The translations under genes and the position numbers were made by a program. Under the pieces are notes generated by a model. The model saw nothing but the letters and a program-made list of their open reading frames with translations. It made no database searches and had not been told where the DNA came from. Positions 2-62,179 of a DNA stretch of 64,000 bases are shown here, one piece after another (within the stretch, counting starts at the first letter, position 1; every line of letters starts with the position of its first letter). The stretch is from Hypericibacter terrae. Its GTDB lineage: Bacteria; Pseudomonadota; Alphaproteobacteria; Dongiales; Dongiaceae. The stretch is taken from contig NZ_CP042906.1 of the NCBI RefSeq assembly GCF_008728855.1, forward strand, positions 1,240,001-1,304,000, written 5' to 3'.

Positions 2-934
2 ATCGGCCGATTTGCGGAGGGTTGGCTCGAATATGAATGGCGCTGGAAGCGCAAGGCCGAGGCCACGAGGCGCAATCGTCCGATGCCCCAGCCTCTGTGG
101 GACGGCGCCCGGTCGCTTCCTGGCCGTCTCCTGATCTGGAACGAGCAGGGGGTGGGCGACGAGGTCATGTTCTCGAGCCTGTTGCCCGAGCTGGCGGGCG
201 GGGTCGATTGCGTGCTCGAATGCGATCCGCGGCTGGTTCCCTTGTTCCGCCGTTCCCTGGCGAAAATCGAGATCGTGGCGCGGCGGGAGCCCATGCCCGA
301 TCCGCTTCTGACGGGATCCGACATCGTGAGGCAGGCGCCGGCCGGCACGGTCGCGCGCTGGCTGCGGCCGGACCTGGCGAGCTTTGCCGGCAAGGGCGGC
401 GCCTATCTCGTTCCCGATCCGGCGCGGGTCGCGGCCTTGAAGAGCCGCTATCGCGAGGCGGGGTTCAATGTCGGCATCGCCTGGTTCACCAAGGCCGATC
501 AGCAGCAGGGGCGCGGCATCGAGCTGGAGCAGCTCGAGCCCCTGCTGTCGACGCCGGGCGTCCGCTTTGTCTCGGTCCAGTATGGCGATCACCGTGCCGC
601 GATCGCGGCGCTCAAGGAACGGACCGGCGTCGGGATCTTCGAGGATCCGTCGATCGACCAGTTGAAGGATCTGGACGGGTTCGCAGCGCAGCTCGCCGCA
701 CTCGACCTCGTCGTCACCATCGACAACAGCGCCGCGCATTTCGCCGGCGCCTTGGGCGTCCCCTGCTGGGTTCTGCTGCCCTTTCTGCCCGAATGGCGCT
801 GGCAGCGCGACCGGACCGATTCGATCTGGTGGTCCTCGCTGCGGCTCTTCCGGCAGAGCCGCCGGGGCGATTGGAGCGAACCGGTGGCCGCGCTTTCGGC
901 GGCGCTCCACGGCCGGCTGCAGGCGCGCTCATGA
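2..934 (+). CDS. TPR-linked glycosyltransferase-9-fold protein, C-terminal part (5' end outside window)
   Basis: The reading frame is open from the first bases of the window, so the N-terminus is missing. The visible part begins with an EGWLEYEWRW motif, the usual link between TPR repeats and the catalytic-like domain. It then carries WNEQGVGDEVMFSSLLPEL and, near the end, TIDNSAAHFAGALG. These motifs resemble the ADP-heptose:LPS heptosyltransferase (GT9) fold seen in TPR-glycosyltransferase fusions. The acceptor is unknown; a role in surface glycan or protein glycosylation is inference. Its stop overlaps the next start (ATGA), so the two are probably translationally coupled. It belongs to the same sequence subtype as modules 2 and 3 of the following gene, which suggests tandem duplication. 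Confidence 0.75.
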   Translation: MGRFAEGWLEYEWRWKRKAEATRRNRPMPQPLWDGARSLPGRLLIWNEQGVGDEVMFSSLLPELAGGVDCVLECDPRLVPLFRRSLAKIEIVARREPMPDPLLTGSDIVRQAPAGTVARWLRPDLASFAGKGGAYLVPDPARVAALKSRYREAGFNVGIAWFTKADQQQGRGIELEQLEPLLSTPGVRFVSVQYGDHRAAIAALKERTGVGIFEDPSIDQLKDLDGFAAQLAALDLVVTIDNSAAHFAGALGVPCWVLLPFLPEWRWQRDRTDSIWWSSLRLFRQSRRGDWSEPVAALSAALHGRLQARS

Positions 935-3900
935 CCGCACCGCAGCTGCCGGAGGCCCGGTTCGACGCGGCGCTGGCGCTCTACCGCGCGGGCGATCATG
1001 TGGCCGCCGCCGCGATGCTCGAGCGCGTGGTGGAGCATGAGCCGGACCGCGGCGAGGCCTGGCATCTCCTGGGCGTGATCCGGTCCCAGGCGCCCGATCA
1101 GGAAGGCGCGTTCGCGGCGCTGCAGCGAGCGGTCGCGCTCCGCCCGGAGGATGCCGAGATTCTCGGCAATCTGGCGCGCCTCCAGATCAAGCGGAAGCAA
1201 TATGGGGAAGCCGCGTCGTTGCTGCGGAAGGCGGTGGCGCTCGCGCCGCGCGACGCGGAGCTCTGGCGCAATCTGAGCCTGGCCCGGCGTCGGCAGGACG
1301 ACATCGGCGGGGCGGTCGAGGCGGCGCGCGAGGTTCAGGCGCTACGCCCCGACGATCCCGCGGCGGCGTTCGAGCTGGGCCTCGTTCTCGCGCGTGCCGG
1401 CGATCCGCGCGCCGCGCATGCGCAATATGTGAAGGCCGCGGCGCTGCGGCCGGATTCCGCGCCGTTCCAGGTTCAGCTCGCCGAATCGCTGCGCGGACTG
1501 GGACAGCTGGCGGCCGCCAAGACGGCGGCCGACCGGGCGGTCAAGCTCGACCCCGACTACGCCTCGGCTCATGCCGTGCAGGGCGACGTCCTGCGCGTGC
1601 TGGAGGATTTCAAGGGCGCTGCGGCGGCGCTCGATCGGGCTCTGGCGCTGGCGCCCAATCTGTTTCTGGGCAATTTCTACAAAGGCCTGCTCGAGAACGA
1701 TCTCTGCCGCGTCGACAGCGCCATCGCCCATCTGGACAAGGCGCTGGCGCTCGATCCCGATCACCCCGATCTCCACTGGAATCGGGCGGTCATGAATATC
1801 CGGCGCGGCGAATGGCGCGAGGGCTTCGCCGAATATGAGTGGCGCTTCCGCTCGAATCTGTTCGTCGGCGGTCCGCGTCCGCCCTTGCCGGTCCGTCCGA
1901 AACCCGCCGAGCTCGCTGGCAAGCGGGTGCTGCTGACGGCCGAGCAGGGTATCGGCGACGTGATCCAGTTCCTGCGCTATACGGCGCTGGTGGCGCAAGC
2001 CGGGGCCCATCCCATTCTGGAAGTTCCGGCCGAGCTTCTTGGTCTTGCGGCATCGACACCCGGCGCAACGGCGGTGATCGCGCGCGGGAGCGAGCCGCCG
2101 CCCCATGATATGGCGCTGCCCTTCATGAGCCTGCCCTACGTCTTCGCGACCGAGATCGCGACGACGCCGGCGACAACGCCTTACCTTCGTCCCGACCCCG
2201 TGGCGGTCGCCGCCTGGGCGAAGCGGCTCAAGGATCTGCCGCGGCCGCGGATCGGTCTCGCCTGGCAGGGCAACCCGCTTCACCGCAACGACCATAACCG
2301 CTCGATCGCGCTGACCCGGCTGAAGCCGCTGATCGAGAGCCTGCCCGCGGGCTGGATCAGCCTGCAAAAGGGCGCGGGCAGCGAGCAGATCGCGGCAGCG
2401 CGCCTCTCGGATCGTCTCCTGGATGCGGGCGCGGGCCTTCAGGACTTCGCCGACACGGCGGCCCTGCTCGACAATCTCGATCTCGTCGTCACCATCGACA
2501 GCGCGGTCGCGCATCTTTCGGGCGCGCTGGGCCGCGCGGTGCTGCTGCTATTGCCCTGGTCGCCCGACTTCCGCTGGATGCTCGATCGCGGCGACACGCC
2601 CTGGTATCCCACCATGCGCCTGCTGCGACAGGCGCGCCGGCGCGATTGGGCCGAGCCGCTGGCGGAGCTTCGATCGGTGCTGGTGAAGCGCTGGCCGCAT
2701 CTGGGCAAGACCGGCCCGGACGCCTCCCGGCCCGCCACGACGCGACAAATGGCGCCGCCGGCATTGCCGCCCGACGCGCAGTCCGCTGCCGAGACGACGA
2801 CGCTCGAGCGCGAGCTGATGCAGTCTCCGGACGATCCCCAGATTCTGGCGCGGTTGTCCACCCTCGAACGACGCCGGGGCCGGCTCGAGGCGGCCATCGA
2901 TCTCGCCCGGCGCGCGCTCCAGTCGGATGCGGCCTTCGTCCCCGGGCTGCTGGCTCTGGGTCACGCCTTGTCCGACCGGGGCGACAACGACGGGGCGGTC
3001 GCGGCCTATGAAGCGGCGTGGCGGCAGCAGCCCGACAACATCCTGGCTCTGACCAATCTCTCGACCTTGCGGCTGCGTCAGGCCACGGCTGCCGCCGAGG
3101 ATGCGCGCGAAGGAAGCGCCGGCCGCGTCGGTGGTTTGATCGAGGAGGCTCGCTCTCTGGCGCTGCGGGCCCGTGCGATCGATCCGGACTATGTGCCCGC
3201 CATCCTGGCGGTGGGCGCCGCCTGCATGCGGGCCCGCAATGTCGACGGCGCTGCCGAGGCCTATGACAGGGCGATCGCTCTCGAGCCCGGGAATGTGATC
3301 GCGCTCGTCAATCTGACCCTCATGCGCCTGGAGCAGTCGCGATCGGAGGAGGCGGAGGCGCTGGGCCGGCGCGCGGTCGCGGCCGATGCGGGCAACGCCC
3401 AGGCGCATTGGCATCTGGCGCTGGCCCTCATGGTCAACGGCAAACTGCGCGAGGGCTGGCCCCAATTCGCCTGGCGATGGGCGACCGACTTCACGGCGGT
3501 AGGGCGGCGCCATTGGCCCTGGCCCGAATGGCCGGGCGGACCGCTCGGCGGACGGCTTCTGGTCTGGAACGAGCAGGGCATCGGCGACGAGCTGATGTTC
3601 TCCAGCCTCCTGCCGGAGCTTTCGAAACAGGTCGATCTGGTGGTCGAATGCGACCCCCGGCTGCTCGATTTGTTCGGCCGGTCGCTCCCGGGCGTCACTC
3701 TGATTCCCCGCACCGGGGTTCCGCCCGAGACGCGCGAATGGCCCGCCGGCATCGTCGCCCAGATCGCAGCCGGCGATATCGCCCGCCATCTGCGCCCCGA
3801 TCTCGCCAGCTTCGCTGGGCAATCCGGCGCCTATCTGAAGCCCGATCCGGAACGCTCGAAGGCGATGCGACAGCGCTATGGCGGCGATCGCCCGCGCATC

Positions 3901-6900
3901 GGCCTCGCTTGGGACACCCGCGCCAAGCTGCATGGCGAGCGTCGCCGGATTCCGCTGGCGGATTTCCTGCCGCTCCTGCGCAACGAGCAGCTGCATGTCG
4001 TCAGCCTGCAATATGGCGACCACAGCGCCGAGATCGAAGCGGTCGCGGCCCAGGGTGCCGCGATCACCGTCGATCCGGCGGTCGATCCTCTCACCGATCT
4101 CGACGGCTTCGCCGCGCAGGTCGCTTCCCTCGACCTCGTCATCACGATCGACAACAGCACGGCGCATATGGCGGGCGCGCTGGGCGTGCCCTGCTGGGTT
4201 CTGATTTCCGATCCGCCGGAATGGCGCTGGATGCTCGACCGGGAGGATTGCGTCTGGTGGCCGTCACTCCGGTTGTTCCGGCAGCAACGCCCGGGCGAAT
4301 GGTCGACGCCGCTGGCCCGGTTGCAGGAGGCGCTGGCGCTGTGGATCGATCGCCGGGGCAAGGCTGTCCAAGCTCCGGTGTCGCGCCGTCCCACCGCTGC
4401 GGAGATGGAGGAGAAGGCCGCCGCCATCCGCCGCTACGAGCAATTGCGCGACGCGGGCCGGCTCGACGACGCGGCGGCCCAGCTCGAGACCATGCTCGCC
4501 CGATATCCGGAGGAGCCGGCCATCCTCACCGAGATCTCGGTCATCGATCGCAAGCGTCGCCGTCCGCAGGCGGCGGTGGCGGCGGCGCGGCGTGCGTTGG
4601 CCCGGAACGGCGGATTCCTGCCGGCCATGCTGGCCCTGGGGGCGGCGCTCTCCGATTTCGACCGGCATGACGAAGCGGCCGATCAGTATGAAAAGGCGCT
4701 GACGATCGAGCCCCGTCACGAGGTGGCGCTGCTGAATCTGTCGGCCCTGCGGCTGCGCCAGGGCCGGTCGATCGAAGCTGAGGAGCTCGGACGCCGGGCC
4801 GTCGAGGTCGCCCCCCAGCGCGCCCACTCGCATTGGCATCTGGCGCTCGCCTTGCTGACGAACGGAAAATATCGCGAGGGCTGGACCGAGTATGACTGGC
4901 GCTGGGCGACCGGGCTGCTGGACGCCGAAAAGCGCGACTGGCCCTGGCCCGCCTGGCAGGGCGAAGCCCTGGACGGCCGGCTCCTGGTCTGGAACGAGCA
5001 GGGCATCGGCGACGAGTTGATGTTCGCGAGCCTGCTGCCGGAGCTGCTCGGCAAGGTGAAGATCGCGGTCGAATGCGAGCAGCGCCTCGTGTCCTTGATG
5101 ACGCGATCGCTGCCGGGCATCCAGGTACTCGCGCGCCGCCCGGGACCGGTCATCGCCTCGGAATATCCCGGCGACATCGTCGCGCAATCCTCGGCCGGGG
5201 ACCTGATGCGCTATCTGCGCCCCGATCCGGCGAGCTTCGCCGGCCGCGGCGGTCCCTATCTGCAGGTGGATCCGAGACGCCGCGATGCGGCGCGCCGGCG
5301 CTACGGCCAGGATCGGCTGCGCGTCGGCATCGCCTGGTACACCGCCTCACTGAATGCCGGCACGAGCCGGGCCATCCCACTGCCGCTGCTGGAGCCGCTG
5401 CTGCGCATGCCGGGCGTGCGCTTCGTCAATCTGCAATATGGCGACCACAAGGCGGAGATCGCGGCGCTCGCGGCCCAAGGCATCGAGCTCTTTCAGGACC
5501 CGAGCTTCGATCAGATGACCGATCTCGAGGGCTTTGCGGCGCAGGTCGCGGCGCTCGATCTCGTCATCACCATCGACAACAGCACGGCCCATATGGCGGG
5601 AGCGCTCGGCGTGCCGTGCTGGGTGCTGCTGCCGAAGCCCGCGGAGTGGCGTTGGCTGCTCGATCGCAGCGACTGCCTCTGGTGGCCGAGCCTGAAACTC
5701 TTCCGTCAGGCGCAGTCGGGCGACTGGTCGGTCCCGCTCTCGCAGGTCCGGGAATCCTTCACGGGCTGGTTGCGCCGGCACGGCAAGACGGATGCCGGCT
5801 TCGACGAAGCGCTGCAGGCGTTCCAGGCGGGCCGCTTCGAGGACGCGCAGCAGCAGCTCGAGCGCCTGCTTCGGGAGCTTCCCGGTCACGCGATGGGCTG
5901 GCAATTGCTGGGCGTGATCCTCAGCCGGTCGGGCCCGCCGGAAGCGGCCCTGGAAGCGCTGCGCCGCGCGGTGGCGCTGGCGCCGGAGGATGGGCAGGCG
6001 GCGGAGAATCTCGGCAAGTTCCTGCTCTCGCAAAAGAGCTGGGGCGAAGCGGCCGAGCAGCTGGCGCGCGCGCAGGCCATCGCCGGTCCGCGTGCCGATC
6101 TCGCGGAAAAGCAGGCGGTGGCCCTGCTGGCGTTGCGACGCTTCGGCGAGGCGGCCGACGCGTTTGCGTCGGCGCGCGGGTTCAAGCCCGCCGATGCCGT
6201 GCTGGCGCGCCGTCATGTGGCGGCCCTGCGCGATGCCCGGCGCTTCGAGGAAGCGGCCGCGATCGTCCGCTCCCGGATCGAGCAGGCGCCCGACGATCTG
6301 GAGATGCTGGCTCAAGGGGTCGAGATCGAGCGGAGCCTCGCGCGGCCCGAGGCCGCTCTCGGGCTGGCGCAGCGGATGATCGCGCTGGCGCCTGACCGTG
6401 CCGCCGCGCACGCGGGCCTGGCCGTGGCGCTGGCCGATCTCGAGCGATGGGACGATGCCGCGGCCGCCTGCCGCCGGGCGCTGGCGCTGGAACCGGAGAA
6501 TGGGAATGCCGCTTCGATCCTCTGCGGCATCGAGACCCGCCGCGGCCATGCCGAGGCGGCGGAGCAGGCCGGTCGCGCGGCGGTCGCGCACGCCCCCGGC
6601 AATGCCATCGGGCATTGGAACTTCGCCCACGCGCTTCTGACCAACGGCGCGTTCCGCGAAGGATGGGCCGAGTATGAATGGCGCTGGCGGACCGGCATGC
6701 TCGACAAGGAAAAGCGCGATTGGCCCTGGCCGGAATGGCGGGGCGAGCCGCTGCAGGGCAAGCGATTGTTGGTTCATACGGAGCAGGGCTTCGGCGACGC
6801 GCTGCAATTCGTGCGTCTTCTGCCGTTGCTGAAGGCCCGGGGCGCGACGGTGCTATTGGAAGCCCAGCGGGAACTGATCGCGCTGTTCGCCGGCCTCGCC

Positions 6901-7593
6901 GGCGTCGATCGCCTGATCTCGCGCGGCGACGCCTTTCCCGCGGTCGATTTCCAGATCCCGCTGATGAGCCTGCCGCATAGCCTCGACCTCACGCTCGAGA
7001 CCATCCCGGCGTCCGTTCCCTATCTGGCGGCCGACCGGGCGAAGATCCAGCTCTGGGCGGCGCGGCTGGCCGATCGCGGGGCGCCTCGCATCGGCATCTG
7101 CTGGCAGGGCGGGCGCGGGCACGATGTCGACCGTTGGCGCTCGGCGTCGCTGGCCCTCTTCGCACCGCTGATCGACGCGGCACCGGCGGCCTCTTTCGTC
7201 TCCTTGCAGAAGCAGGACGATCTTGCCGAGATCGCCGCTGCCGGGATGGAAGGTCGGGTGCGATCGGTCGCGGCCGAGCTCGGCGACTTCGCCGATACGG
7301 CGGGGCTGCTCGCCAATCTCGATCTGGTGGTCACGGTCGACACGGCCGTCGGCCATCTCGCCGGCGCCATGGGCAAGCCCGTCTGGCTGATCCTGGCCGA
7401 GGCGCCCGACTTCCGCTGGATGCGCAATCGCGCGGACAGCCCCTGGTATCCGCATCATCGTCTGTTCCGGCAGCAGGATCGCGGCGACTGGCGTGCGCCG
7501 GTCGCCGGCATTGCCGCGGCATTGCCGCGATTTCTGGCGGAAATCCGGGACTCCCGAAATGCCGGGCCCGCGGTCACAAAGCTGAAAAATTAG
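931..7593 (+). CDS. Giant four-module TPR / glycosyltransferase-9-fold protein
   Basis: This 2220-residue protein repeats one plan four times: TPR helices, an EYEWR-like linker, then a GT9-like domain. The linkers start near residues 290, 839, 1314 and 1909. The EQGxGD motifs lie near 330, 880, 1353 and 1948. The TID/TVD-x-H motifs lie near 518, 1070, 1546 and 2133. Modules 1 and 4 have EQGIGDVIQF or EQGFGDALQF and longer TPR arrays. Modules 2 and 3 have WNEQGIGDELMF and TIDNSTAHMAGALG, like the upstream gene. I chose the ATG at 931 because it overlaps the upstream stop and begins the TPR region; the same frame is open further upstream but out of register with the preceding gene. The GT9 fold suggests sugar transfer; substrate and location are unknown. 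No signal peptide or membrane segment is evident, so it is probably cytoplasmic. Confidence 0.8.
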   Translation: MTAPQLPEARFDAALALYRAGDHVAAAAMLERVVEHEPDRGEAWHLLGVIRSQAPDQEGAFAALQRAVALRPEDAEILGNLARLQIKRKQYGEAASLLRKAVALAPRDAELWRNLSLARRRQDDIGGAVEAAREVQALRPDDPAAAFELGLVLARAGDPRAAHAQYVKAAALRPDSAPFQVQLAESLRGLGQLAAAKTAADRAVKLDPDYASAHAVQGDVLRVLEDFKGAAAALDRALALAPNLFLGNFYKGLLENDLCRVDSAIAHLDKALALDPDHPDLHWNRAVMNIRRGEWREGFAEYEWRFRSNLFVGGPRPPLPVRPKPAELAGKRVLLTAEQGIGDVIQFLRYTALVAQAGAHPILEVPAELLGLAASTPGATAVIARGSEPPPHDMALPFMSLPYVFATEIATTPATTPYLRPDPVAVAAWAKRLKDLPRPRIGLAWQGNPLHRNDHNRSIALTRLKPLIESLPAGWISLQKGAGSEQIAAARLSDRLLDAGAGLQDFADTAALLDNLDLVVTIDSAVAHLSGALGRAVLLLLPWSPDFRWMLDRGDTPWYPTMRLLRQARRRDWAEPLAELRSVLVKRWPHLGKTGPDASRPATTRQMAPPALPPDAQSAAETTTLERELMQSPDDPQILARLSTLERRRGRLEAAIDLARRALQSDAAFVPGLLALGHALSDRGDNDGAVAAYEAAWRQQPDNILALTNLSTLRLRQATAAAEDAREGSAGRVGGLIEEARSLALRARAIDPDYVPAILAVGAACMRARNVDGAAEAYDRAIALEPGNVIALVNLTLMRLEQSRSEEAEALGRRAVAADAGNAQAHWHLALALMVNGKLREGWPQFAWRWATDFTAVGRRHWPWPEWPGGPLGGRLLVWNEQGIGDELMFSSLLPELSKQVDLVVECDPRLLDLFGRSLPGVTLIPRTGVPPETREWPAGIVAQIAAGDIARHLRPDLASFAGQSGAYLKPDPERSKAMRQRYGGDRPRIGLAWDTRAKLHGERRRIPLADFLPLLRNEQLHVVSLQYGDHSAEIEAVAAQGAAITVDPAVDPLTDLDGFAAQVASLDLVITIDNSTAHMAGALGVPCWVLISDPPEWRWMLDREDCVWWPSLRLFRQQRPGEWSTPLARLQEALALWIDRRGKAVQAPVSRRPTAAEMEEKAAAIRRYEQLRDAGRLDDAAAQLETMLARYPEEPAILTEISVIDRKRRRPQAAVAAARRALARNGGFLPAMLALGAALSDFDRHDEAADQYEKALTIEPRHEVALLNLSALRLRQGRSIEAEELGRRAVEVAPQRAHSHWHLALALLTNGKYREGWTEYDWRWATGLLDAEKRDWPWPAWQGEALDGRLLVWNEQGIGDELMFASLLPELLGKVKIAVECEQRLVSLMTRSLPGIQVLARRPGPVIASEYPGDIVAQSSAGDLMRYLRPDPASFAGRGGPYLQVDPRRRDAARRRYGQDRLRVGIAWYTASLNAGTSRAIPLPLLEPLLRMPGVRFVNLQYGDHKAEIAALAAQGIELFQDPSFDQMTDLEGFAAQVAALDLVITIDNSTAHMAGALGVPCWVLLPKPAEWRWLLDRSDCLWWPSLKLFRQAQSGDWSVPLSQVRESFTGWLRRHGKTDAGFDEALQAFQAGRFEDAQQQLERLLRELPGHAMGWQLLGVILSRSGPPEAALEALRRAVALAPEDGQAAENLGKFLLSQKSWGEAAEQLARAQAIAGPRADLAEKQAVALLALRRFGEAADAFASARGFKPADAVLARRHVAALRDARRFEEAAAIVRSRIEQAPDDLEMLAQGVEIERSLARPEAALGLAQRMIALAPDRAAAHAGLAVALADLERWDDAAAACRRALALEPENGNAASILCGIETRRGHAEAAEQAGRAAVAHAPGNAIGHWNFAHALLTNGAFREGWAEYEWRWRTGMLDKEKRDWPWPEWRGEPLQGKRLLVHTEQGFGDALQFVRLLPLLKARGATVLLEAQRELIALFAGLAGVDRLISRGDAFPAVDFQIPLMSLPHSLDLTLETIPASVPYLAADRAKIQLWAARLADRGAPRIGICWQGGRGHDVDRWRSASLALFAPLIDAAPAASFVSLQKQDDLAEIAAAGMEGRVRSVAAELGDFADTAGLLANLDLVVTVDTAVGHLAGAMGKPVWLILAEAPDFRWMRNRADSPWYPHHRLFRQQDRGDWRAPVAGIAAALPRFLAEIRDSRNAGPAVTKLKN

Positions 7594-9799: not shown

Positions 9800-12700
9800 A
9801 TGGCGAACGAAGCGGCCGGAACGAGATGCGGGGCGCAAGGGCACGAAGCGCGCTGGCAGTTCTGGATCGATCGCGGCGGCACTTTCACCGACATCGTCGC
9901 GCGCCGGCCGGACGGCGAGCTCCTGACGCATAAGCTGCTGTCGGAGAATCCCGAGCGCTATCGCGACGCGGCGATCCAGGGCATCCGCGAGCTGCTGAAG
10001 CTCGAGGCGGGCCGGCCGATCCCGGCCGACGCCATCGCGGCGGTCAAGATGGGCACCACCGTCGGCACCAATGCGCTCCTGGAGCGCAAGGGCGACCGGA
10101 CGCTGCTGGTCGTGACCAAGGGCTTCGCCGACGCGCTGCGGATCGGCTATCAGAACCGTCCCGACATCTTCGCGCGGCGCATCCTGCTGCCGGAGCTGCT
10201 CTATGAGCGGGTGCTCGAGGTCGAGGAGCGCGTCACGGCCGAAGGCGAGTGCCTGAAGCCGCTCGATCTCGCGGCGGCGCGCGCGGGACTCCAGGCCGCG
10301 CTCGAGGACGGCATCCATGCGGTGGCGATCCTGCTGATGCATGGCTACCGCCACACCGAGCACGAGCGCCAGCTGGCCGAGCTCGCGCGCGAGGTGGGCT
10401 TCACCCAGGTCTCGGTCAGCCATCGCGTCAGCCCGCTGATGAAGCTGGTCGGCCGCGGCGACACCACGGTGGTGGACGCCTATCTGTCGCCGCTGCTCCG
10501 GCGCTATGTCGACCAGGTCGCGTCGGAGTTGGGCGGCGCCCGGCTCATGTTCATGCAGTCCAATGGCGGCCTCACCGACGCGCGGCTGTTCCAGGGCAAG
10601 GATTGCATCCTGTCGGGGCCTGCCGGCGGAATCGTCGGCGCGGTCGAGACCTCGCGGCAGGCGGGTTTCGATCGCATCATCGGCTTCGACATGGGCGGCA
10701 CCTCGACCGACGTCTCGCATTATGCCGGCGAGTATGAGCGCGCCTTCGAGACGCAGGTGGCCGGCGTGCGCATGCGCGCGCCCATGATGCAGATCCACAC
10801 GGTGGCGGCCGGCGGCGGCTCGATCCTGTTCTTCGACGGCGCCCGCTTCCGTGTCGGGCCGGAATCCGCGGGCGCCAATCCAGGGCCGGCCTGCTACCGC
10901 CGCGGCGGGCCGCTGACCGTCACCGACTGCAATGTGATGCTGGGCAAGCTGCAGCCCGAATTCTTTCCCCATATCTTCGGGCCCAACGGCGACCAGCCCC
11001 TCGATGTCGAGATCGTCAAGGCCCGGTTCGGCGAGATGGTGGCGCGGATCGAGGCCGCGACGGGCACGCATCGCACGGCCGAGGCCGTGGCCGAAGGCTT
11101 CCTCACCATCGCGGTCGAGAACATGGCGAACGCGATCAAGGAAATCTCGATCCAGCGCGGCTATGACGTGACGCGCTACACGCTCTGCTGCTTCGGTGGC
11201 GCCGGCGGCCAGCATGCCTGCCTGGTCGCGGACGCGCTCGGCATGACGAGGATCTTCCTCCATCCCCTGGCGGGCGTGCTCTCGGCCTATGGCATGGGCC
11301 TGGCCGACGTGCGGGTGATGCGGGAGCGGGCGATCGAAACCCGGCTCGGCGAACCCGCGCTGCAGGACGCCAGGGCGCAGCTGGACAGCCTGGAAGCGCA
11401 GGCGCGCGAGGAGATGCGCGAGCAGGAGCTGCCCGAAGCCGCCCTCTCGGCGATCCGGCGCGTGCATCTGCGCTATGAAGGCACCGATGCCGCGCTGGTG
11501 GTGGAGTTCGGCAGCCTCGCGGAGATCGTGGCGCGCTTCGAGGCCGCCCATCGCCAGCGCTACGGTTTCATCGTCGCGGACAAAGGCCATATCCTCGAGG
11601 CCGTCTCGGTCGAGGTTGTCGGCAAGACCGAGAGCGTCACCGATCCGGTGATCGAGCCGCGCGCCCTCAAGCCCGCGCCGCAGGCGAAGGCGCGGGTCGC
11701 CATGCGCGCCGCCGGCACTGCACACGATACCGCGGTCTATGACCGCGCCGATCTCCAGGCCGGCGACAGGATCACGGGCCCCGCCATCATCGTCGAGCCG
11801 ATCGGGACCAATGTGATCGAGCCGGGCTGGCAGGCGGAGATGACCTCGCACGGCCATCTGGTTCTGACGCGGATCGTGGCGCTGCAGCGGAGCTCGGCCG
11901 TCGGCACCCAGGTCGATCCGGTCATGCTCGAGGTCTTCAACAATCTCTTCATGTCGATCGCCGAGCAGATGGGCTCGACGCTGGAGAAGACCAGCTACTC
12001 GGTCAATATCAAGGAGCGGCTGGATTTCTCCTGCGCGATCTTCGACCGCGAGGGTCAGCTCATCGCCAATGCGCCGCATATGCCGGTGCATCTGGGCTCG
12101 ATGGGCGAGAGCATCCGCACCATCATCCGCAGCCGCAGCGCCACCATGGCAGCGGGCGACGTGTTCGTGCTGAACGCGCCCTATAACGGCGGGACGCATC
12201 TGCCGGATGTGACGGTGGTGACGCCGGTGTTCGAGCGGGAGGCCTCCGCGGCTCCCTCCACCGAGTCATCCCCCTCCCTAGCCCTTCCCCGTTCCGGGGG
12301 AGGGGATTATCTCGCTCCTGTCCCCTCCCCCCTCGAGGGGGAGGGTCAGGGAGGGGGTCGCTCGGTCGCGCAGCCCACCCAAAACCGCGTCCTCTTCTAC
12401 GTCGCCAGCCGCGGCCATCACGCCGATATCGGCGGGATCACGCCGGGCTCGATGCCGCCCGACAGCCGCACCGTCGAGGAGGAGGGCGTCCTCATCGACG
12501 ATTTCAAGCTCGTCGACCGCGGCCGGTTCCTCGAATCCGAGATGCGGGCGCTGCTTTCCTCGGGGAAATATCCGGCACGCAATCCCGATCAGAACATCGC
12601 CGACCTTCGCGCCCAGATCGCGGCCAACGAGAAGGGCGTGCAGGAGCTGCGGCGCATGGTGGGGCTCTACGGCCTCGACGTGGTCTGGGCCTATATGGGG

Positions 12701-13603
12701 CATGTCCAGGACAATGCCGAGGAGCAGGTGCGCCGGGTCATCTCGGTGCTGAAGGACGGCCGCTTCACCTATCCGCTCGACGATGGCAGCCAGATCACGG
12801 TCGCGATCACCATCGACAAGCCCACGCGCTCGGCTCGGATCGACTTCACCGGCTCGAGCCCGCAGGCCAGGAGCAATTTCAACGCGCCCTCGGCCGTCTG
12901 CCGCGCGGCCGTGCTCTATGTCTTCCGCACGCTGGTGGACGACACCATCCCGATGAACGAGGGTTGCCTCAAGCCGCTCGAGATCGTCATCCCCGAAGGC
13001 TCGATGCTCAATCCGCGCTACCCGGCGGCGGTGGTGGCAGGGAATGTCGAGACCTCGCAATGCATCACCGACACGCTCTATGGGGCGCTCGGCGTGCTCG
13101 CGGCCTCGCAAGGCACGATGAACAATTTCACCTTCGGCAATGCGCGCTATCAATATTACGAGACCATCTGCGGCGGCTCGGGTGCCGGCCCCGACTTCGA
13201 CGGCACCGACGCGGTCCATACCCATATGACCAATTCGCGCCTGACCGATCCGGAGGTGCTGGAATGGCGATTCCCGGTGATGGTGGACAGCTTCGCCATC
13301 CGGCGCGGCTCGGGCGGGAAGGGCAAGCATCGCGGCGGCGACGGCGTCACCCGCAAGATCCGCTTCCGCGAGGCCATGACGGCCGCGATCCTCTCCGGCC
13401 ATCGCAAGGTGCCGCCCTACGGCATGGCGGGCGGCGAGCCGGCGGCGGTGGGGAGGAACTATGTGCTGCGCGCCGATGGCAGCCGCACCGATCTCGGTTC
13501 GACCGACAAGACCGAGATGAATCCGGGCGACGTCTTCGTGATCGAGACGCCGGGCGGCGGCGGGTTCGGCAAGGTGGAAGAGGCGAAAAAGGCGGCGGAG
13601 TGA
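9800..13603 (+). CDS. Fused 5-oxoprolinase / N-methylhydantoinase (HyuA-HyuB)
   Basis: This 1267-residue protein joins a HyuA-type ATPase half to a HyuB half, as in 5-oxoprolinases. The HyuA half is about residues 15-690 and includes [16 protein letters not shown] and the [10 protein letters not shown] phosphate-binding motif. The HyuB half runs from about 705 to the end and includes [10 protein letters not shown] and the Gly-rich PGGGGFG close to the C-terminus. It is expected to use ATP to open a cyclic amide such as 5-oxoproline or a hydantoin; the exact substrate is uncertain. AGGAG precedes the ATG. Residues about 815-860 are an odd insertion, rich in Pro/Ser/Gly, just before the conserved [11 protein letters not shown] block. 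It is encoded by an inverted pair of the palindromic repeat common between genes in this window. The frame stays open through it, so the enzyme may still fold with an extra surface loop. Confidence 0.88.
12270..12357. repeat. Inverted pair of 36-nt palindromic units inside the oxoprolinase frame
   Basis: One unit lies at 12270-12305 and its inverted partner at 12322-12357, with a 16-base spacer. Each unit is a CCCCTCCCCC...GGGGGAGGG hairpin plus a flanking AGGGAGGGGG arm. The same unit occurs at 19191, 19313, 61088 and 61185, mostly outside genes. Here the first unit reads as [13 protein letters not shown] in the protein. Confidence 0.85.
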
Positions 13604-33730: not shown

Positions 33731-33772
33731 GGGGTTGGCATAGGACCGAGCGGTCGATCCCGCGCTCCTGAC

Positions 33773-33855
33773 GTCATCCCCGCGAAAGCGGGGACCCAAC
33801 TCTCCACCGACACCGCTGGATCGACACGGGCCCCCGCTTTCGCGGGGGTGACGGT
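33773..33855. repeat. 83-bp palindromic element, copy 1
   Basis: The element has near-perfect inverted ends (GTCATCCCCGCGAAAGCGGG and its complement) around a 36-base core. It differs from copy 2 at one base (C in CACGGG against T). Together with copy 2 it accounts for most of the 467 bases between the permease and the aminotransferase; the 83-base spacer and the tail to 34197 show nothing else. Confidence 0.9.
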
Positions 33856-33938
33856 AGGGCGGGTGCGATGACCCCTACAGATGCGGCAAGGTATCGGCAG
33901 CCCTGCGACCGCGCGATGTTGCGCAAGTTGCTCCCATG

Positions 33939-34021
33939 GTCATCCCCGCGAAAGCGGGGACCCAACTCTCCACCGACACCGCTGGATCGACATGGGCCCC
34001 CGCTTTCGCGGGGGTGACGGT
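33939..34021. repeat. 83-bp palindromic element, copy 2
   Basis: Same orientation and length as copy 1, with 82 of 83 bases identical. The near-identity means recent duplication or gene conversion. It looks like a small non-coding palindromic mobile or REP-type unit. Confidence 0.9.
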
Positions 34022-34197
34022 GGGGTTTTCACGGCGGTGACTATTAAGGTCTGATTCACCACGCGGACTTTGCCCGGCGGGTCCCCTGTCCCCTCCAATT
34101 GCGCGGCCCTGTCCCTATAGGGCCGCGACCCTGGCCGTTAGGATGGCTGTCAGTGCCGAGAGGCCTTTCGTCCTTCTCCTGACCCCCGGGTGCCGCC

Positions 34198-59514: not shown

Positions 59515-61065
59515 GTGTCGTTCCGTTCTTCCTTCGCGTCCCCGCGGTCCCTCGTCCCGACGCCGTTCTGGTGCGTCGCGGCCCTGCGCTCGGCCGGCGC
59601 CGCGGCCTTCGTCGCCCTGCTGGCATTGACGGCATCCCCGGCGCCCGCCTCGGCGCGCTCGGCGCCCGAGAGCTTCGCCGACCTGGCGGAAGCCCTGCTG
59701 CCGGCGGTCGTCAATGTCTCGACCACCCAGACCCTGAAGGACGACGGCAATTCGCAGCAAGACCTGGAGGAGATGTTCAAGGACTTCTTCGACCGGCAGA
59801 ATCGCGACAATGGCGACAATGGCGACAATGGCGGCGGCGGCGGGAACGGCCAGCAGCCGGAGCCGCGCCGCGCGACCTCGCTGGGCTCGGGCTTCATCAT
59901 CGATCCCAGCGGCTACATCGTCACCAACAACCACGTCATCGAGGGCGCCGACCAGATCACGGTCCGCCTCCATGACGATACCGAGCTCGAAGCCAAGATC
60001 ATCGGCATCGACACCAAGACCGACCTGGCGCTGCTCAAGGTCGAGCCGAAATCGCCGTTGCCCGCCGTGCATTGGGGCGATTCCGACAAGACCCGGATCG
60101 GCGACTGGGTGCTCGCGATCGGCAATCCGTTCGGCCTCGGCGGCTCGGTCACGGCCGGCATCGTCTCGGCCCGCCAGCGCGACATCAATGCCGGCCCCTA
60201 TGACGACTTCATCCAGACCGATGCTTCGATCAATCGCGGCAATTCCGGCGGTCCCATGTTCGACATGGATGGCGGCGTCATCGGCATCAACACGGCGATC
60301 TATTCGCCCTCGGGCGGCAGCGTCGGCATCGGTTTCGCCATTCCCTCGAATCTCGCGCGCACGGTCATCGAGCAGTTGAAGGATTTCGGCCATGCCCGTC
60401 GCGGCTGGCTGGGCGTGCGCATCCAGAGCGTGAGCCCGGAGCTGGCCGAAGGTCTGCGCCTGCCGACGCCGAAGGGGGCGCTGGTCGCCAATGTGACGGC
60501 GGGTGGCCCCGCCGACGCCGCCGGTATCAAGCAGGGCGACGTGATCCTCGAATTCAACGGCCATGCCATCGACGAGATGCGCAAGCTGCCGCGCGTCGTG
60601 GCCGAGACGCCGATCGATCAGGATGTTTCGATCGTGGTCTGGCGCCAGGGCGAGAAGAAGACCTTGTCGGTCAAGGTCGGCGAGCTGCAGGAAGAGACCG
60701 AGCAGGCCTCGGCGGAATCGACCCAGCCCAAGACGCCGACGGCGCCGGCCAACAGCGGCAAGGTCGATCTGCTGGGTCTCGTCGTCACCGAGCTGACCGC
60801 GGCCCTGCGCGACCAGTACAAGCTGGAGCCCGATGTCGCCGGCGTGCTGGTGAGCTCGGTCGACGCCAACGGTCCCGCGGCCGAGAAGGGCCTGCAGGAA
60901 GGCGACGTCATCATCGAGGTCGACCAGAAGGCGGTCAAAACTCCGGCCGACGTGAAGAAGCGCGTCGACGACGCCAAGGGCAACGGCTATCGCGTGGTGA
61001 CGCTCCTGGTCTATCGCGGCGGCGACTTCCAATGGGTCGCGGTGCGGATCGACAACAAGGGGTGA
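59515..61065 (+). CDS. DegP/HtrA-type periplasmic serine protease
   Basis: The 516-residue protein has a signal peptide (about residues 20-48) and a trypsin-like domain with triad His140 (TNNHVI), Asp170 (TDLALL) and Ser244 (RGNSGGPMF). Two PDZ domains follow (about 300-390 and 415-510). It degrades or refolds misfolded periplasmic proteins. A short low-complexity stretch (about residues 98-112, DNGDNGDNGGGGG) in the LA-loop region comes from a tandem GACAATGGC repeat that could vary between strains. The start is GTG with CGGAGG upstream. It fits the hflKC-DUF2065-degP order. Confidence 0.92.
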   Translation: MSFRSSFASPRSLVPTPFWCVAALRSAGAAAFVALLALTASPAPASARSAPESFADLAEALLPAVVNVSTTQTLKDDGNSQQDLEEMFKDFFDRQNRDNGDNGDNGGGGGNGQQPEPRRATSLGSGFIIDPSGYIVTNNHVIEGADQITVRLHDDTELEAKIIGIDTKTDLALLKVEPKSPLPAVHWGDSDKTRIGDWVLAIGNPFGLGGSVTAGIVSARQRDINAGPYDDFIQTDASINRGNSGGPMFDMDGGVIGINTAIYSPSGGSVGIGFAIPSNLARTVIEQLKDFGHARRGWLGVRIQSVSPELAEGLRLPTPKGALVANVTAGGPADAAGIKQGDVILEFNGHAIDEMRKLPRVVAETPIDQDVSIVVWRQGEKKTLSVKVGELQEETEQASAESTQPKTPTAPANSGKVDLLGLVVTELTAALRDQYKLEPDVAGVLVSSVDANGPAAEKGLQEGDVIIEVDQKAVKTPADVKKRVDDAKGNGYRVVTLLVYRGGDFQWVAVRIDNKG

Positions 61066-61087
61066 GGAGCGGGCTCTCACTAGTTAT

Positions 61088-61220
61088 CCCCTCCCCCGTT
61101 TTTGGGGGAGGGCTAGGGAGGGGGCAGTCTCGGTATCCGGGCTGAACGCTTCCAGGCTCATGACACCTGCGCCCTCAACGTCTTCCCCCTCCCTGGCCCT
61201 CCCCCGTTCCGGGGGAGGGG
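61088..61220. repeat. Inverted pair of palindromic units around the miaA start
   Basis: One unit is at 61088-61124 and the opposite-orientation unit at 61185-61220. The miaA ATG (61160) lies between them, so the second unit is translated as the start of MiaA. Confidence 0.85.
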
Positions 61221-62179
61221 ATCAGAACGCGAATGTCCTCGTCATCGCCGGCCCCACCGCGAGCGGAAAGTCCGCGCTGGCCATGGCGCTGGCGCAGAAG
61301 CTCGGCGGGACGCTCATCAACGCCGACAGCATGCAGCTCTATCGCGAGCTGTCGCTCTTGTCGGCGCGTCCGACCGAGGCGGAGATGGCGCGCGTTCCCC
61401 ATCGTCTTTTCGGCATCCTGCCGGCGGGCGAGCCCTGCTCGGCGGGGCGCTGGCGCGAGCTGGCGCTGAGCGCCATCGCCGCGACCCGCGCGGAGGGCCG
61501 CTTGCCGATCCTGGTCGGCGGGACGGGGCTCTATCTCGAATCCCTGATGCGCGGCATCGCCGATCTTCCGCCGATCCCCGAAGCGATCCGCAAAAGCCTG
61601 CAGGCCCGGATGAGCGCGCCTGACGGCGTGGCGTCGTTGTTCGAGGCACTCGAAGCTTGCGACCCCGCGACGGCCGCGCGGATCGAGCCGACCGACCGCC
61701 AGCGCATCCTGCGCGCCCTCGAGCTCTTCGAGGCGACGGGCAAGCCGCTGTCGGTCTGGCAGGCAGAAAGCGGCCGGGCGCCGCCGCCGGATCTTGTCTT
61801 CGAGACTTATCTCCTGATGCCACCGCGCGCCGCCCTCTATGCCGCCTGCGATCGCCGCTTCGCCGGCATGGTGGCAGCGGGAGCGCTCGAGGAGGTGAAG
61901 GCCCTCCTGGCGCTGAAGCTCGATCCGGCCCTTCCGGCCATGAAGGCGATCGGCGTCGCCGAGCTGGGCGCCTATCTGGCCGGGACGAGCGACCTGACCA
62001 CGGCGATCGCGGCCGGCCAGCAGGCCACCCGGCGCTATGCCAAGCGCCAATACACCTGGTTTCGCCACCGGCTGCCGGGCGCGGCCCGGATCGAGGCCGA
62101 TCCGCTGGAGCCGGGCTTTGCGGGCGCGCAATTTTTGGAAAGATTCTTTCGCGATTTCTTTTCGAAGATTTGCCATTAG
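61160..62179 (+). CDS. miaA: tRNA dimethylallyltransferase
   Basis: The 339-residue protein has the P-loop VIAGPTASGKSALAMAL, starting near residue 28, NADSMQLYRELS and the tRNA-binding RRYAKRQYTWFRHR near the C-terminus. It prenylates A37 of tRNAs reading UNN codons. The first 25 residues are unusual: residues 9-21 ([13 protein letters not shown]) come from a palindromic repeat. No ATG, GTG or TTG lies in frame between the repeat and VLVIAGPT, so the repeat must supply the start region. The next gene, ilvB, has its own promoter candidate. Confidence 0.92.
   Translation: MTPAPSTSSPSLALPRSGGGDQNANVLVIAGPTASGKSALAMALAQKLGGTLINADSMQLYRELSLLSARPTEAEMARVPHRLFGILPAGEPCSAGRWRELALSAIAATRAEGRLPILVGGTGLYLESLMRGIADLPPIPEAIRKSLQARMSAPDGVASLFEALEACDPATAARIEPTDRQRILRALELFEATGKPLSVWQAESGRAPPPDLVFETYLLMPPRAALYAACDRRFAGMVAAGALEEVKALLALKLDPALPAMKAIGVAELGAYLAGTSDLTTAIAAGQQATRRYAKRQYTWFRHRLPGAARIEADPLEPGFAGAQFLERFFRDFFSKICH

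Follow-up and report, generated by a model that had tools for sequence, protein, structure and literature searches.

In Hypericibacter terrae, the start codon of miaA lies between two inverted units of a palindromic repeat, the second of which is open in the miaA frame and forms part of the predicted N terminus. Our best explanation, with a probability of about 0.85 judged from sequence comparison, is that a repeat pair lodged at the miaA 5' end, that the ATG in its spacer would be used as start codon, and that the (+) unit would be translated as a passive tail. The DNA analyzed, here called the window, is a stretch of 64,000 nucleotides in which position equals genome coordinate minus 1,240,000; its relevant features are as follows.

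59515..61065, + strand: HtrA/DegP-type serine protease with PDZ domains, upstream of miaA and in a frame different from that of miaA
61088..61123, - strand: palindromic repeat unit 22 nt past the htrA stop; its G-rich strand reads toward miaA
61124..61185, + strand: spacer of 62 nt between the inverted units, containing the start codon; its middle differs from most repeat spacers
61160..61162, + strand: ATG, the sole in-frame ATG/GTG/TTG from the upstream stop to the P-loop (frame scan)
61160..62179, + strand: miaA ORF, 339 aa, ATG start (from the ORF list; Pfam IPPT, E = 3e-75)
61186..61220, + strand: palindromic repeat unit within the miaA frame; with adjoining bases (61184-61222) it accounts for 13 coded residues
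61250..61273, + strand: P-loop GPTASGKS, the first conserved MiaA motif
12271..12356, + strand: oxoprolinase repeat site, an inverted (+)(-) pair read through in frame as a 13-residue and then a 12-residue peptide

The C-rich palindromic unit, 35-36 nt long, is present twice and inverted around the miaA ATG at 61160, as (-) at 61088-61123 and (+) at 61186-61220, which agrees with a preliminary description of this DNA that had placed the MiaA start between two inverted units. That description had also matched the second unit to the oxoprolinase in both peptide and reading frame, and this holds: MiaA residues 9-21 (61184-61222) are the 13-residue peptide coded by the (+) unit plus adjoining bases, and the oxoprolinase ORF (9800-13603) carries the identical peptide from the same frame of the unit at about 12269. 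Its statement that the repeat supplies the MiaA N terminus is correct for part of the N terminus, namely, residues 9-21. A frame scan for ATG, GTG, and TTG likewise bore out the absence of a start codon after the repeat: reading back from the P-loop, none was found in frame between the P-loop and the (+) unit, and ATG 61160, 30 codons from GPTASGKS, stands alone. The arrangement, its frame, and the single standard start are thus read directly from the sequence.

Comparisons were made with a sister species (G001, a separate genome of the same genus; G000 denotes the genome of the window's species) and with G002, a different genus of the same family and the best-matching other genus in the MiaA search. 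The comparison with a sister MiaA start that had been suggested found the repeat-ATG-repeat layout there too (MSDSEHPPSLALPLNGGGDSKTDVLVIAGPTASGKS); the order htrA-unit-ATG-unit-miaA is identical in both species, with 959 nt from the (+) unit to the end of miaA in each. The arrangement is absent from G002, where 48 nt separate the htrA stop from the miaA ATG (MTRSPQRRPDALIVAGPTASGKS) and no repeat was found in those 48 nt. Across 110 MiaA loci, the P-loop was located by regular expression in 100 and not in the other 10. An in-frame start precedes the P-loop in 99 of the 100 scored loci (L037 has none), and the two farthest nearest starts are those of the window's species (30 codons) and the sister (28 codons), with the other 97 at 2-24 codons. 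A repeat core with at most 3 mismatches occurs within 250 nt before the P-loop in 3 of the 100, both Hypericibacter species and L017; the 3-mismatch core of L017 precedes two in-frame ATGs and so lies outside its protein. miaA gave a single match in G000 at E ≤ 0.001, one in G001, and a match in 40 of the 41 genomes searched. The sister locus (L010, near position 1440) also has an in-frame GTG 47 codons before GPT; it shares bases with the htrA stop (GTGA), and its frame runs open across both units. No equivalent in-frame GTG exists in the window's species.

The enzyme body is under purifying selection, with dN 0.13 and dS 0.64 between the two species (dN/dS about 0.2). The 23 aligned tail codons gave dN 0.52 and dS 0.42, a ratio of about 1.2 that is indicative only on so few codons, and on that basis the tail looks unconstrained. 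An AlphaFold2 model of MiaA (mean pLDDT 89.6) has a confident enzyme core and a first strand at residues 24-30, and places residues 2-21 below 50, so that the fold is predicted to be intact and the tail disordered. With the body constrained, the fold intact, and the tail disordered and unconstrained, the repeat-coded stretch is most likely a tolerated, inherited N-terminal extension; it looks like a passive, disordered one, probably without function of its own.

We propose that a short REP-like palindromic pair entered the htrA-miaA interval before the two species sampled diverged, and that the (+) unit came to sit in the miaA 5' end in a stop-free frame. Translation would start at the spacer ATG and then read through the (+) unit, giving a Ser/Pro/Gly-rich disordered tail ahead of the first beta strand and the P-loop, and the lack of stops in this frame of the unit presumably allowed the pair to be tolerated. 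Ribosomes probably use ATG 61160, against which stand a weak Shine-Dalgarno match and a stable leader fold that might hinder initiation.

The repeat family is abundant and largely intergenic. Exact copies of the core CCCTCCCTNNCCCTCCCCC number 54 + 47 in the 5.89-Mb G000, against 0 + 1 for the reversed control pattern; the window has 13 matches at ≤3 mismatches where 0.14 are expected, and one or more copies of the core are present in 19 of the 289 genomes sampled from the class. Unit counts in both species apply to fetched regions. For G000, these were 70 regions around 107 listed places, containing all 101 exact cores of the genome, 160 cores at ≤3 mismatches, and 91 full units, and are thus complete for exact cores and partial for diverged copies; for G001, 100 listed places gave 79 regions with at least 111 full units, and 150 places match at ≤1 mismatch. 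The full unit is an imperfect palindrome with stem CCCTCCCCC/GGGGGAGGG and a variable loop. In G000, 88 of the 91 full units are intergenic although 85% of the fetched DNA is coding, 29 of these 88 lying between convergent and 3 between divergent genes; in G001, 105 of 111 are intergenic among the matches listed. Genes and starts in these controls come from our own codon-usage gene caller, trained on the window. The G000 regions hold 51 (-)(+) inverted pairs with spacers. REP/BIME elements of enterobacteria and pseudomonads are short GC-rich multicopy palindromes, often arranged as inverted pairs with spacers. The present unit is likewise a short, GC-rich, multicopy imperfect palindrome, extragenic and often in inverted pairs with a spacer; being mostly intergenic and seldom between divergent genes, it therefore behaves like a REP/BIME-type element. 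It differs in its CCCTCCCTNNCCCTCCCCC core and in that no Y1 (RAYT-type) transposase was found in either Hypericibacter genome: PF01797 had no match in G000, G001, or G061 (a distant class member), on which a RAYT partner of the repeat was rejected, and it had one match in G006, with 5 of 14 control genomes positive.

Of 91 half-unit clusters in G000, 41 have both flanks in fetched G001 loci, and for 35 of these 41 a core occupies the corresponding position in G001. The core at 4506505, and perhaps others of the 35, is weak and probably unrelated; stems are preserved at shared sites, and loops and spacers are often different. The TNN triplet of the exact cores in G000 is TAA, TAG, or TGA in 78 of 101 (AG 28, GA 27, AA 23), so one frame of the unit is normally closed. 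Over positions 60900-61400, Rfam returned 25 matches at E up to 1, 24 of them to microRNA models and all under gathering scores, and a catalogued RNA family was ruled out for that interval. A promoter and terminator scan of 60700-61400 found no terminator-like site and one minus-strand promoter-like site. Elsewhere in the window, a different palindromic repeat (GTCATCCCCGCGAAAGCGGGGACCC...) forms two 96-nt copies, 94% identical and 166 nt apart, at 33764-34025, and several diverged internal repeats of 100-300 nt occur within 122-7593, in an ORF of exceptional size (2221 codons, 931-7593) and its neighbor.

Units inside genes are few. The three genic full units among the 91 of G000 are the oxoprolinase pair and the MiaA unit; the six of G001, among the matches listed, comprise the orthologs of this pair and of the MiaA unit, plus three units at gene 3' ends. 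These last units (G001:C1 31384, 1414992, and 1447986; L249, L279, and L281) supply or adjoin the stop of a called gene. Among genes with a unit close to their start, miaA is the sole one called as starting 5' of the unit, both in G000 (1 of 40) and, among the matches listed, in G001 (1 of 54); a further 5 genes in G000 and 6 in G001 (among the matches listed) can be extended through a unit and have their called start after it. The oxoprolinase insert, about 47 residues with the (+)(-) pair, is common to both species. Six other genomes were searched: a gap of about 47 residues lies at the insert site in G002, G004, G007, and G009, four other genera; G003 gave no match and G005 distant relatives only. 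In G061, which has 98 exact cores, 30 of the 32 exact cores in the 30 loci taken are intergenic, and no N-terminal repeat case was seen in those loci; the other 2 of 32 (L361 and L364) overlap a gene end and supply its stop. In a collection of annotated plasmids, 20 records match the unit: 14 have no feature there, 4 are unannotated, and 2, both of one Methylosinus plasmid, have it within a gene. There (L371, NZ_CP023738.1 42979-46016, position 1501-1538), a unit match of 86.8% over 38 nt with the open frame PPPSPSPAPRER sits within a 9.3-kb annotated SDR-family gene of Methylosinus trichosporium.

Where the start codon itself came from is a separate matter, and here the two species part. The preliminary description suggested that the repeat had replaced the native start; this replacement is well supported by sequence only in the sister, whose ATG lies in an ordinary repeat spacer, and in the window's species, whose spacer is atypical, the start may have been either replaced or retained. 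At p ≤ 0.05, 48 of the 52 other short spacers are similar to the sister's 30-nt spacer (GGCTGCGCGATGTCGGATAGCGAGCACCCC), whose ATG stands 7 nt past the G-run of the unit. Its anti-Shine-Dalgarno match of -13.0 kcal/mol is equaled or undercut in strength by 188 of 191 ATG-starting genes of the window's genome, and the match at ATG 61160 is -3.6 kcal/mol, with 44 of the 191 as weak or weaker; both energies use an assumed anti-Shine-Dalgarno sequence. The ATG positions within the spacer are non-homologous between the two species and, with spacers and start contexts differing, the two would use different start codons. An ATG in the miaA-type frame is found in 16 of 102 readings of this family's spacers, so its presence in a spacer is not special.

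The native start may have been kept in the window's species. According to this account, which we consider somewhat less likely than not, ATG 61160 and MTPAPSTS are original and insertion was confined to the (+) unit, placed after about codon 8; the sister subsequently lost its native start when an ordinary repeat spacer, by chance containing an ATG, took its place. It refines the best explanation with regard to origin and agrees with it on where translation starts. The middle of the G000 spacer resembles only 1 of 35 other long spacers, which excludes it as a typical long spacer, and no second copy was found in the genome; an atypical, single-copy spacer suggests that ATG 61160 may be native DNA with the unit inserted beside it. 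Removal of the 13 repeat-coded residues would bring the nearest start to about 17 codons before GPT, inside the range (2-24) of the other 97 loci, and the first residues MTPAP resemble the MTRSP of G002. Against this, both ends of the spacer are usual repeat tails, and the oddness of its middle is not unique because three other long spacers resemble just 2 of 35. Of 486 control gene starts, 42 are at least as similar in DNA to the native start of G002 as this start region is (58 of 486 for the sister's), so the likeness is not significant, and clear homology of the G000 spacer to the outgroup start was rejected on those 42.

A more general reading treats the inverted pair as a ready-made mobile translation-initiation module, with the sister's MiaA as a captured instance and starts turning over as spacers are exchanged; we regard it as speculative and rather unlikely. 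The outward tail of one unit would bear a Shine-Dalgarno-like run (e.g., GGGAGGGGG or GGAAGGGGG); a G after the tail motif, CGCGAT or CTCGAT, would complete an ATG about 7-8 nt farther on, and no stop would interrupt the opposite unit in the required frame, so that a pair landing on the 5' end of a gene could rescue a lost start. When 111 spacers, among the matches listed, are read in both directions, 25 of the 222 ends have such a tail ATG.

The leader also folds strongly: in neither species is any of 200 shuffles as stable (z = -6.27 in G000 and -3.81 in G001), and the G000 leader is more stable than 149 of 150 sampled gene starts. The pair could on these grounds be a hairpin selected to control translation, its apical loop carrying the start codon and its long GC stem setting MiaA output. 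In G000, the start region falls at the open end of the stem, with a mean unpaired value of 0.57 that 133 of 150 sampled genes equal or fall below despite the very stable leader, and the sister's repeat tail provides the very strong match of -13.0. Yet any inverted pair folds strongly, and intergenic pairs share the same build. The predicted structures differ, one long stem in one species versus separate hairpins in the other; openness in the sister is ordinary (0.38, with 65 of 150 equal or lower), and only the sister has a strong Shine-Dalgarno match, that of the window's species being weak. Selection for such a hairpin thus appears improbable, and a possible regulatory role of the modeled leader is not favored over simple tolerance.

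Translation from a nonstandard codon after the repeat, leaving the repeat as leader only, is highly improbable. The unit does end in GGGGGAGGGG, a Shine-Dalgarno-like run just ahead of the coding region, but the codons from the unit to VLVI are not conserved (CAG AAC GCG AAT in the window, TCC AAG ACG GAC in the sister), and the only near-cognate start common to both species before the P-loop is an ATC inside strand VLVI, use of which would cost much of beta strand 24-30; on this ground the later start was rejected. ATG 61234 is out of frame and missing in the sister. Readthrough from htrA was rejected on its different frame and stop. Least probable by far is a decaying gene or an assembly error, for which the G000/G001 comparison, dN/dS, and match counts gave no support and which we rejected on the identical arrangement in a second genome, the body dN/dS of about 0.2, and one miaA match per species with matches in 40 of 41 genomes.

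In-frame palindromic repeats in proteins are already known, and the present case adds another repeat family. Ogata et al. in 2000 and Claverie and Ogata in 2003 reportedly described Rickettsia palindromic elements (RPEs) lying in frame in protein genes. A review counts 44 RPE insertions in R. conorii and places almost half of the elements inside ORFs (PMC10969869). The likeness is a multicopy palindromic repeat read in frame in conserved proteins and apparently tolerated; here the unrelated protein genes are those of MiaA and oxoprolinase in both species and the Methylosinus plasmid gene. The units differ in length, about 150 bp for RPEs versus about 35 nt, and in that the present unit is nearly always intergenic in the fetched regions (88/91) and stands at a 5' end with the start codon inside the pair. 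Delihas 2007 describes fusions of the enterobacterial RU-1/RU-2/RU-3 repeats (ERIC, YPAL; 103-168 bp) with ORFs, including an N-terminal case, residues 4-35 of Y. pestis YP_0349 (PMC2759123). Those, too, are mostly intergenic repeats that occasionally supply protein sequence, the N terminus included; they are longer, belong to another lineage, and make up about half of a wbbJ-type ORF chain (PMC2759123), whereas here a short tail is joined to a full-length enzyme that is the only miaA match in its genome, in two species. Among the titles and abstracts listed on REP/RAYT and start codons, on intragenic palindromic repeats, and on MiaA N-terminal extension, none concerned a MiaA repeat case. This case stands out in having its start codon flanked by inverted units, in affecting a conserved enzyme, and in allowing two species to be compared.

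For annotation, a start shifted past the repeat would break the P-loop strand of MiaA. For the biology of these bacteria, this is a clean two-species case in which a normally intergenic palindromic repeat has turned into part of the 5' end of a gene for a conserved tRNA-modifying enzyme. It shows how such a gene can survive when its start codon and N terminus are replaced or end up behind a repeat.
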